The notes under the pieces: model-generated
What the model saw: only the letters and a program-made list of their open reading frames with translations
The model's database searches: none
Told to the model about the DNA's origin: nothing
Position numbers and translations under genes: made by a program
Shown: positions 51,998 through 54,432 of the stretch, one piece after another
Position numbering within the stretch: the stretch's first letter is position 1
How the letters are laid out: the number at the start of each line of letters is the position of its first letter
Assembly: GCA_016871495.1 (NCBI GenBank)
Contig: VHDF01000028.1
Location: 1-54,432 of the forward strand
DNA: 54,432 nt
Reading direction: 5' to 3'
Source: Verrucomicrobiota bacterium
GTDB lineage: Bacteria; Verrucomicrobiota; Verrucomicrobiia; Limisphaerales; VHDF01

Positions 51998-52073
51998 GGG
52001 GTCGTAGCTCAGTTGGTAGAGCGTCTCGTTCGCAATGAGAAGGTCGCAGGTTCGAATCCTGTCGGCTCCACCA
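51998..52073 (+). tRNA. tRNA-Ala (anticodon CGC)
   Basis: The sequence folds as a full cloverleaf: 7-bp acceptor stem 51998-52004 with 52063-52069, D stem GCTC/GAGC, anticodon stem TCTCG/TGAGA with loop TTCGCAA, T arm GCAGG TTCGAAT CCTGT. The G3-U70 pair, the main alanine identity element, is present. The CCA end (52071-52073) is encoded. It reads GCG codons. Confidence 0.96.
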
Positions 52074-52569
52074 GTCCGAGAAATGGTTTCCGGAGGTCGT
52101 CGCCATTCAGCAGCCGGTGCGTGGCGAACGAATGCTGCAAGCTGTGTGGCGTGGCCGGTCTGGGAAGCCGGGCGGTTCGAACGGATTCCTTCCATCATCC
52201 GCAATTCAGTGCCGTGGACAAGGCGCAGCGGTAGCGCGAATCCTCCGTGACCACATTCAGCACCCGGATTTGTTCCCTTTGTCGCCTTGGATGGACTTCG
52301 GACCGCGCCGTTCACGGCGCCTCAACGTGGACAACCCATCCGCGTGAATTCCCAACCCGTCTCGAATGACGCTCCAGGCTTCCCCCGTAACGCAGACAGC
52401 CCTGTCTGCTGTGCCGCAGGCTGCCCAGCCTGCGAGGCGGTGCCAGGCCTATCGCCCCGCAATTCCCCCAGGCGTGCAACCGCAATCCCCGGACCGCGCC
52501 GTTCACGGCGCTTCATCGTGGACAGCATCACGACATGATTTGACCGATGAGACTGGAACAAAAATCGAA
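52074..52569. other. 496-bp region between tRNA-Ala and intI, repeat-rich
   Basis: No gene is supported. It contains two direct copies of GGACCGCGCCGTTCACGGCG (52301-52320 and 52494-52513), each a GCGCCGTTCACGGCGC hairpin, and a partial R1 copy at 52367-52446. The remainder shows nothing recognisable. Confidence 0.65.
52367..52446 (+). repeat. Partial R1 copy
   Basis: Shares GTAACGCAGACAGCCCTGTC and GCAGGCTGCCCAGCCTGCG with the full copies at 34.1 and 23.1 kb, with a few changes, then breaks off after GCGAGGCGGTGCC. The right end with GGATGCAC is missing. Confidence 0.7.
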
Positions 52570-53580
52570 TTACCCGGCATCCAGCGGACTTTTGACCCCC
52601 AATCCTGGCTTTGTCATCACATGGGTGTAAATCTGTGTCGTCGAGACATCCTTGTGCCCAAGCAATTCCTGCACCGTCCGAATATCGTATCCAGCTTCCA
52701 GGAGATGCGTGGCAAACGAATGTCTCAGGCTGTGGCACGAGGCTGGCTGATGGATCTGAGCCGCACGAACCGCCTCCTTCACCGCTCGTTGAAGCGCCGT
52801 CTCATGCACATGATGGCGCCGAATCTGATTGCTCCGTGGATCTCGGCTGGGATGCGAGGCGGGAAACACATATTGCCACCCCCATTGTCTCGCCGCATTC
52901 GGATACTTCCTGGCCAGCGCGTAGGGCAGTTCGACCTCACCTTGACCGGAGGCCAACTCCTGCTCGTGCAGCGTTCGCACTCGTCGCAGATGGTTCTCCA
53001 AATCCGTTTTTGTCGAAAGCGGTAGCATTGTGACCCTGTCCTTGAATCCTTTGCCGTCACGTACAAGGATTTGATTCTGCTCAAGGAGGATGTCCTTGAC
53101 CCGCAACCGCGTACATTCCATCAGCCGCAAGCCTGCGCCGTAGAGCAGCCGAGTCATCAGATGCAATGTTCCTGGCTTCATCGCGGCAAGCAGTCTTCGA
53201 ACCTCTTCCACTGTTAAAACTACGGGCAGCCTTTTCGGCCTGTTCGCGCGGGCTGCGTCGATGGGACCCGGCTCTTGGTGCAGAACCTGTTGATAAAGAA
53301 ACAACAACGCACTGAACGCCTGGTTCTGAGTGGAAGCTGCGACTTTGCCCCGAACGGCGAGATCCGTAAGAAACGCTTCGATTTCCAGAGCCCCCATTTC
53401 ACGGGGATGCCGTTTGCCGTGGAAAAAGATGAATCGCTTAATCCATTGAACATAAGTCTCCTCCGTGCGGAATGAGTAGTGCTTCAGGCGGGCGACCTCG
53501 CGCACCTGATCCAGAAGCCTGGATTTGGGGTTGGGAATGAATCGTCCCAACCGCTCCGTTGCAGCCTTTGTATCTTGCAT
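52570..53580 (-). CDS. intI: Integron integrase IntI
   Basis: The product is 336 aa from the ATG at 53580, which is preceded by AGGAGG nine bases upstream; the 15 codons further upstream were excluded for this reason. It is a tyrosine recombinase with the full catalytic set R152, H283, R286, H309 and nucleophile Y318 ([21 protein letters not shown]). The IntI-specific insert is present as [21 protein letters not shown] (about 221-241) before the C-terminal box, which separates integron integrases from XerC/D and phage integrases. IntI recombines attI with cassette attC sites. It reads away from the plus-strand gene at 53715, with attI between them, as in all integrons. Function is inferred from family; the frame is intact. 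Confidence 0.94.
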
Positions 53581-53692
53581 ACAGAACCACCTCCTGAACG
53601 CAAGTTTCTCCTGGACAAGCAGCAAGGCAAGAATATTCTACGAGTATGCTGTCTTTAAAGACAGCTATTAGGCAGTCCAGTTATAGTTAGGC
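53581..53692. other. Putative attI region with cassette boundary GTTAGGC
   Basis: The 112 bp between the intI start and the first plus-strand gene hold the palindrome at 53648-53665 and a GTTAGGC heptamer at 53686-53692, an exact match to the integron core site GTTRRRY. Recombination in integrons occurs between G and TT, so cassette DNA would begin at 53687. The attI sequence of a new integron cannot be verified by eye beyond the core and its position. Confidence 0.7.
53648..53665. promoter_or_regulatory. 18-bp perfect palindrome, possible LexA (SOS) operator of intI
   Basis: GCTGTCTTTAAAGACAGC is a perfect palindrome and contains CTG-N10-CAG, the proteobacterial LexA-box form. It lies 68-85 bp upstream of the intI start codon, in the promoter region. 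SOS control of intI by LexA is established for class 1 and Vibrio integrons. Whether the LexA of this host binds this sequence is unknown, since LexA motifs differ between phyla. Confidence 0.6.
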
Positions 53693-53714
53693 CACATCGT
53701 GCGTCGTGCCAGCT

Positions 53715-54416
53715 ATGAGCACTAAACCAGTCCACGGACCAGACGAACTGCGGCATTTGGAACTCTTGAGAGAAGCTCAGCAACTTCTCGCCGACGCCCT
53801 AAACTCGTTGGGTGGTAAAACGCCGGCAACCGCCGAAGCAGCGTATCTGGGATGGGCGGCGGTCCATGTGAATCGCGCTGCTGAGGGATACCTGTGGCTT
53901 CGAGATTCATGCCGAGTTGCCGCCTCGAAGCTCTTAGTTCGCCCAGCACTCGAAGCGACCTTTGCAGGGATAGCTGTGATAAAGAATCCAAGCCTCCTGT
54001 TTCGCAAGGCCTATTCTGAGTGGGAGGAGGATAAGAAGATGTTTGCGACGGATGACATCGGCAGGAACCAGGCCGACAAGGCCTTGGAAGAACTGAAGCG
54101 TACGTTCCAGACGAATTGCCCCAACTGTCTCGTCGACTGCAAGCGACTCACTGTTCGCGACGCGGCTGACGCCGCTGGATTCGTCGAAAACTATGAGAGT
54201 GCGTATCGCACTTACTGCCAGTTCACGCACGGCGCAATGCGAGCAGTTCTCGGGCATCTCGATGATGCCACGGACGAAATTGACACGCCGATTGTTACTT
54301 GGTGCGTGCTTCAGATGCTCGACCATTTGCAAACAGACACACCAGCCCAGATTCCAGATCTCGTCCCGTTCCGGAAGAGGCTGCTTTACCCAGAAGCCAC
54401 AATCCATGCCGCCTAA
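53715..54416 (+). CDS. First cassette gene, unknown function
   Basis: The product is 233 aa from the ATG at 53715 (MSTKPVHGPDELRHL); a GTG at 53706 is an alternative. I do not recognise it with confidence. It is soluble and helical, with a Cys pair (CPNC) near residue 136 and a segment SAYRTYCQFTHGAMRAVLGH that recalls DUF5677/DUF6988-type proteins of unknown function. No ribosome site is evident, and the gene starts 28 bp after the core site, as cassette genes do. GC content is lower than in neighbours, consistent with acquired DNA. The stop codon lies within GCCTAAT, the predicted 5' core of attC. It may encode an accessory or defence-type function, but nothing in the sequence shows this. 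Confidence 0.82.
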   Translation: MSTKPVHGPDELRHLELLREAQQLLADALNSLGGKTPATAEAAYLGWAAVHVNRAAEGYLWLRDSCRVAASKLLVRPALEATFAGIAVIKNPSLLFRKAYSEWEEDKKMFATDDIGRNQADKALEELKRTFQTNCPNCLVDCKRLTVRDAADAAGFVENYESAYRTYCQFTHGAMRAVLGHLDDATDEIDTPIVTWCVLQMLDHLQTDTPAQIPDLVPFRKRLLYPEATIHAA

Positions 54417-54432
54417 TCCATTTAGCCGGATC
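54411..54432 (+). other. Start of a putative attC site, cut by the window end
   Basis: GCCTAAT (54411-54417) matches the attC 5' core RYYYAAC at six of seven positions and is complementary to the GTTAGGC core at the cassette start, apart from one base. It overlaps the cassette gene's TAA stop, as is usual. The rest of attC, with the hairpin and the GTTRRRY end, would lie beyond the window. Confidence 0.55.

Follow-up and report, generated by a model that had tools for sequence, protein, structure and literature searches.

The window, by which we mean the whole stretch of DNA analysed (54,432 nucleotides), is the entire contig C28 of genome G000, which comprises 5.06 Mb in 201 contigs and is 97% complete. 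Toward its right end it carries an intact integrase gene of the IntI family, an attI core, and a cassette gene that lies between matching cores (Table 1), and complete attC sites are present at sister platforms of the same genome. The contig stops at position 54432, 16 b past the stop codon of the cassette gene, with 22 b representing attC. From the sequence we infer the activity of IntI, the promoter Pc, the remainder of attC, and any cassettes past the contig end.

Table 1. Features at the right end of the window, and related sites on other contigs of the same genome
Feature	Position	Strand	Basis and remarks
tRNA-Ala (CGC)	51998..52073	+	ARAGORN; Rfam tRNA, 69.3 bits; left neighbour of the platform
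Decayed C-terminal remnant of a second intI	52087..52215	-	E 1.9e-5; residues 276-317; one internal stop
intI, integron integrase, 336 aa	52570..53580	-	TIGR02249, 2a3v and tree
Candidate cassette promoter Pc, TGGACA-16-TATTCT	53612..53639	+	Consensus match, weak
18-bp perfect palindrome GCTGTCTTTAAAGACAGC	53648..53665	.	Ends 20 b before the attI core
Presumed attI L box GGCAGTC	53671..53677	+	Place relative to the core
attI core GTTAGGC	53686..53692	+	Sequence; 105 b beyond the intI start, on the cassette side
First gene cassette, truncated where the contig stops	53687..54432	+	Geometry
Cassette ORF, 236 aa if read from GTG (further ATG at 53715)	53706..54416	+	Weak DUF5677 match
attC, first 22 b: R'' box GCCTAAT (54411-54417) and start of L''	54411..54432	+	Sequence
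Sister platform	C45:6249-7520		intI match to residue 197; attC 75.9 bits (model seed)
Sister platform	C64:26380-27860		intI match to residue 104; attC 35.5 bits (non-seed)
Sister platform	C24:260-1007		intI match to residue 71; attC 47.6 bits (non-seed)
Three-attC cluster	C169:1263-2308		30.3, 27.1 and a weak 18.1 bits; the 27.1-bit site is a non-seed

The open frame of intI extends from 53625 to 52570 on the minus strand and would encode 351 aa if read from the TTG at 53625, or 336 aa from the ATG at 53580; the latter, with AGGAGG just upstream, is the likelier start. The description of this integrase as intact, made in an earlier sequence-only reading of the same DNA, is borne out by a full-length frame free of stops, by a match to the integron integrase family TIGR02249 (455.2 bits; family cut-off 265) that assigns the protein to the integron subfamily, and by an alignment of the solved integron integrase 2a3v to residues 21-334 of 336 (E 8.9e-87). 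A Xer-type or phage-type tyrosine recombinase, accompanied by chance occurrences of the words GTTAGGC and GCCTAAT, would be an alternative to this assignment, and the XerC and XerD models do match the protein (142 and 146 bits), while both words are short. These scores, however, are far from the respective cut-offs of 335 and 330, in contrast to the TIGR02249 score, and in a tree the window integrase falls among the integron integrases, apart from three other tyrosine recombinases that this genome encodes. The tree, which was calculated by a quick method from 65 hand-chosen rows and has long outgroup branches, separates 60 IntI from five Xer or other tyrosine recombinases with an SH-aLRT value of 98; phylogeny had been proposed as a check on whether the protein belongs with XerC, and it groups with the integron integrases rather than with Xer. 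As for the words, GTTAGGC occurs twice in the 54 kb, both strands counted, and GCCTAAT once on the plus strand, with one copy of each where an integron requires it. We thus regard the alternative as having a negligible probability.

Within the tree no well-supported small group forms around the window integrase, and the rows nearest by path are L019, L020 and L018, three metagenome-assembled genomes (MAGs) labelled Verrucomicrobia, which also hold its best full-length relatives (71-73% identical). This agrees with the earlier suggestion that the host is a probable member of the Verrucomicrobiota; in addition, a genome of the same order (G007) shares an identical stretch of 8000 b with a contig from a Verrucomicrobiota-labelled MAG (L168 within L068), and Verrucomicrobiota is therefore the likely host phylum. 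Integrase matches of at least 245 bits are found in 18 of the 57 other genomes searched in the order, while all 58 match something in the integrase search, many of them through Xer-like proteins. Several long integrase frames were encountered in this order (570 aa in L102/L172, 524 aa in L106, 495 aa in L113, and 470 aa in L108); these frames, measured from stop to stop and far exceeding 336 aa, possibly carry N-terminal extensions.

On the other side of attI, the GCCTAAT core described earlier as overlapping the stop of the cassette gene is indeed present and contains its TAA stop. Six of the seven positions of the core at the start of the cassette pair with this R'' box, as expected for an integrated cassette; the last base of the R'' box departs from the usual RYYYAAC. 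The cassette protein matches Pfam DUF5677 (PF18928) with 32.3 bits, the cut-off being 27.1, and has no PADLOC or NCBIfam family; among 387 genomes of the phylum it was encountered solely in its own, it is absent from plasmid records, and it was unmatched in a pattern search of IMG/VR with a reach limited to close relatives. The cassette gene had been described as lower in GC, which holds with respect to the window (0.557, compared to a mean of 0.609, with 4.1% of 711-b windows equally low) but does not distinguish the cassette, since intI has the same value of 0.557. A covariance model of attC yields no match anywhere in the window, where 22 b of the site are present, not even with an E threshold of 10; these last 22 b occur a single time in the genome when up to 3 mismatches are allowed, and have no copy in IMG/VR; in stretches of 15 or more, the last bases of the contig match none of six contig ends compared.

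The succession of intI, attI, cassette and attC put forward by the sequence-only reading thus stands, with the integrase, the GTTAGGC core between it and the cassette gene, the cassette gene itself and the start of attC all correctly placed, and complete attC sites at sister platforms. We are highly confident that the right end of the contig is part of a genuine chromosomal integron. In such a platform IntI would recombine the attC of circular cassettes, folded as single-stranded DNA, with the attI core (53686-53692), where crossover presumably takes place between 53686 and 53687 (G/TTAGGC). Incoming cassettes would insert beside intI and be transcribed away from it, probably from a Pc located between the intI start and attI, and the gene at 53706-54416 would represent the latest captured cassette that is still in place. 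Insertion at this position and transcription from Pc are proposed because the protein family and the geometry are those of known integrons.

A search for attC with the strict pattern GCCTAAC-N(40-70)-GTTAGGC gave no match in the genome (reversed control: 5 on each strand), and a covariance model was therefore constructed on 34 attC taken from loci whose IntI are related. These seeds were chosen by eye among 82 matches of a palindrome scan, on the strand suggested by intI, and the others were dropped; the search of the genome itself scored 150 of 4630 first-look candidates, so that some attC may have escaped detection. At least three further platforms were recognized, on C45, C64 and C24, each composed of a shortened intI, an attI core, one cassette and an attC. 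Pairing between the start core and the R'' box extends over all 7 positions in C45 (GTTAGGC) and C64 (GTTCGCC) and over 6 of 7 in C24 (GTTCGGT), and hence the four platforms of this genome, which use three different cores, display 6 or 7 paired positions throughout. The intI-attI stretches of C45 and C64 are closely similar. Their cassettes encode a protein without Pfam family that appears lipoprotein-like by reading (C45) and an Mrr-type restriction enzyme (C64), while the cassette protein of C24 has neither a Pfam nor a PADLOC family. C169 holds a cluster of attC, two of whose three sites were detected only when this contig was searched alone, and carries a HicA-like toxin gene, next to a gene that is HicB-like by reading and has no family match. 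The boundary for counting a site is not clean: matches on C8 (26.8 bits), C5 (20.8), C113 (19.2), C29 (18.2) and C86 (14.6) were left uncounted, although the C8 match, the one of the five around which part of the contig was read, scores about as high as a counted C169 site. An identical stretch of 127 b ends both C64 and C169, and the two contigs may be adjacent, although this stretch includes a repeat found elsewhere in the genome.

Arrays of greater length occur at loci with a related full-length IntI, with 9 attC in L173 and 6 in L165, both of the same order, and 7 in L093, a MAG labelled Proteobacteria; L093 and loci under L173 (L109) supplied seeds for the model that gave these counts. 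Shortened integrase genes are also present in relatives: among 20 partial, mostly N-terminal intI loci, hand-picked from the relatives' matches and including no seed locus, 10 have an attC (E at most 2.2e-4), which without exception lies on the attI side and on the opposite strand. The other 10 show no attC; in at least three of them (L142, L155, L161) the contig edge on the attI side is no more than about 120 b away. Pseudogenes were described as making up nearly a third of intI genes, and 20% of bacteria as having more than one intI (PMC2426708).

Single-cassette platforms with a broken intI indicate that integrons decay in this genome, which evokes the question of whether the window platform, its IntI sequence still intact, is likewise a locus that has ceased to capture. 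Such a fate would be in line with the three truncated sisters, which retain an N-terminal part of intI, the attI core, one cassette and attC, and with the intI remnant found within the window itself. The window intI, however, is of full length, has no stops, and aligns with 2a3v nearly end to end, and we consider decay of this platform unlikely, although it deserves more weight than a Xer-type recombinase. An intact integrase of this kind could also serve the stub platforms on C45, C24 and C64.

The region between the intI start and the attI core carries a palindrome whose significance was evaluated by comparing 27 loci, consisting of the window, C45, C24 and 24 others (C64 was omitted as a near-copy of C45), in each of which the core was picked by eye. 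An 18-bp palindrome with 6 or 7 of its 7 outer pairs, its end located precisely 20 b ahead of the core, is present in 6 of the 27, namely the window, L019, L020, L080, L083 and L105, compared to at most 2 loci for the best count of any palindrome geometry among 300 mononucleotide shuffles. L019, L020 and L105 are Verrucomicrobiota, labelled or placed, and L080 and L083 are Planctomycetota. The arms differ between related loci (window GCTGTCTTTAAAGACAGC, L020 GACGTATTATAATACGTC) while the position remains constant; in L083 the 18-bp palindrome forms the centre of a longer one. L018 has 5 of the 7 pairs; C24, L116 and L118 fail the fixed-geometry test, although their sequences resemble the others by eye. 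When loci are treated singly, 10 of 28 have a palindrome significant at p 0.05 relative to shuffles of the same locus; the median p is 0.355, and the palindromes of C24, L018, C45 and C64 are no better than their own shuffles; only the fixed-geometry test, and not the single-locus test, is convincing.

On the textbook reading, the palindrome could be taken for a LexA operator that brings intI into the SOS response, an arrangement known from many integrons of Proteobacteria, since it fits CTGT-N8-ACAG exactly. This box is that of most beta- and gamma-Proteobacteria (PMC3108266). The lexA gene of this genome has no good copy of the box within 250 b upstream, the best agreeing in 6 of 8 letters; related loci preserve the position of the palindrome while its arms vary; and CTGT-N8-ACAG is found near the intI start in 5 of 80 related loci, all five belonging to Pseudomonadota, some of the 80 having less than 300 b of upstream sequence. 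LexA control therefore appears improbable, more so than decay of the platform. Comparative attI data are suggestive of accessory IntI sites as a reasonable alternative.

Two other elements of this region were examined in the same 27 loci. The L box agrees with an upstream inverted copy in 4.81 of 7 positions within loci and in 4.25 of 7 between loci (permutation p 0.0006); a control stretch further away also gives p 0.0024, and for this reason the mirroring of the L box by an inverted upstream copy is suggestive only. Direct copies yield p values of 0.04 to 0.19. With regard to the promoter, a consensus scan of 53200-54432 detects 2 promoter-like sites, with 0.5 expected, and 10 of the 27 loci carry a T[TG]GACA hexamer at a distance of 67-86 b ahead of the core, where 0.93 would be expected; this hexamer is a candidate for the -35 box of Pc. 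These elements may be combined into a tentative proposal, which we hold to be doubtful and about as uncertain as the decay of the platform: the attI of Verrucomicrobiota would be composite, its L box mirrored upstream by inverted and sometimes direct copies bound by IntI, so that IntI would recombine at this site and also repress the intI gene and Pc; in this genome, the single intact IntI would moreover serve, in trans, three or more scattered stub platforms.

The locus resembles several known systems. Environmental chromosomal integrons, such as those of Rhodocyclales, Gallionellaceae and Methylococcales, have the divergent intI, the GTTRRRY core and the attC ends, with IntI 57-67% identical; they differ in host lineage, and at the present locus the first cassette is the only one visible, its gene being without close relative in the collections searched. 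Other integrons of Verrucomicrobiota (L018, L019, L020 and genomes of the same order) possess the nearest integrases and a similar attI, several having attC arrays beside intI, but their cassettes differ from that of the window. Loci formed by an intI stub and one cassette are found both in this genome and in relatives. The class 1 integron (intI1/attI1) has the same layout, the aligned portion of IntI being 48-52% identical, and differs in being mobile and plasmid-borne. Its attI1 also carries an inverted repeat beside the core (GGGC-AGTC-GCCC), comparable to the palindrome of the window, and class 1 attI has direct repeats of its own.

The integrase, attI and cassette had been announced as probably new, which holds for the sequences but not for the phenomenon, since Verrucomicrobiota are already listed among integron-bearing phyla (PMC8618304). 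Models of attC have been constructed for 11 taxa, including Planctomycetes, in a study whose text gave no match to the word Verrucomicrobia (PMC8352920). No paper devoted to integrons of Verrucomicrobiota was found in the literature searched, most subscription journals lying outside it. What is new is the copy of the locus, the captured gene and the decayed sister copies; the kind of system, and the existence of broken and multiple intI, were known. The analysis confirms an integron in an uncultured, probably verrucomicrobial lineage and adds a cassette gene without close relative in the collections searched, and the co-existence of one intact and several decayed platforms in a single genome renders testable the question of whether one integrase keeps several attI in use.

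Elements of IS91 type that carry a tyrosine recombinase and share the terminus GAACTAARCCGCTNCGCGG were observed at C169:2302-4412 (L016), L080:602-2774, L028:1009-3119, and L179-L206. In C169 and L080 a tyrosine recombinase and a transposase of IS91 type (Y2_Tnp, Zn_Tnp_IS91) come after the terminus, and L028 has two frames of these kinds, as judged by sequence; at many other copies the contig stops before element genes would appear. The terminus occurs in 12 of the 387 genomes of the phylum, including that studied here (reversed control: 1 genome), and in two Planctomycetota loci. In 6 of 28 loci (L183, L187, L192, L194, L198 and L199) an attC recognized by the model, at 16.6 to 27.3 bits and hence in some cases weak, ends exactly at the GAAC of GAACTAARCCGCTNCGCGG, its R'' box coinciding with the junction, and in L080 the junction lies, by eye, at the attI core; most copies, such as those of G376, have no visible attC. 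The 70 b that precede the junction fold better than stretches further upstream (mean z of -1.34 for 30 sites, compared to -0.17 for 136 stretches, p 7e-5), with many single sites no better than the controls and some sites lying in the same genome as others. The family possibly targets attC or other hairpins, that is, folded DNA. No report of IS91-type elements at attC was found in the literature searched, and one published study reportedly concerns target choice by IS1111/IS110.

Other observations concern the flanks of the window and repeated sequences. The remnant of the second intI directly adjoins the tRNA-Ala gene. A palindrome-bearing repeat (GGACCGCGCCGTTCACGGCGC...) is present at about 52296-52340 and 52490-52530; it recurs across the genome and is also located at the ends of contigs C64 and C169. 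Near the left contig end, positions 93-169 match a group II intron domain (RF00029; Rfam 45.3 bits, gathering threshold 40).
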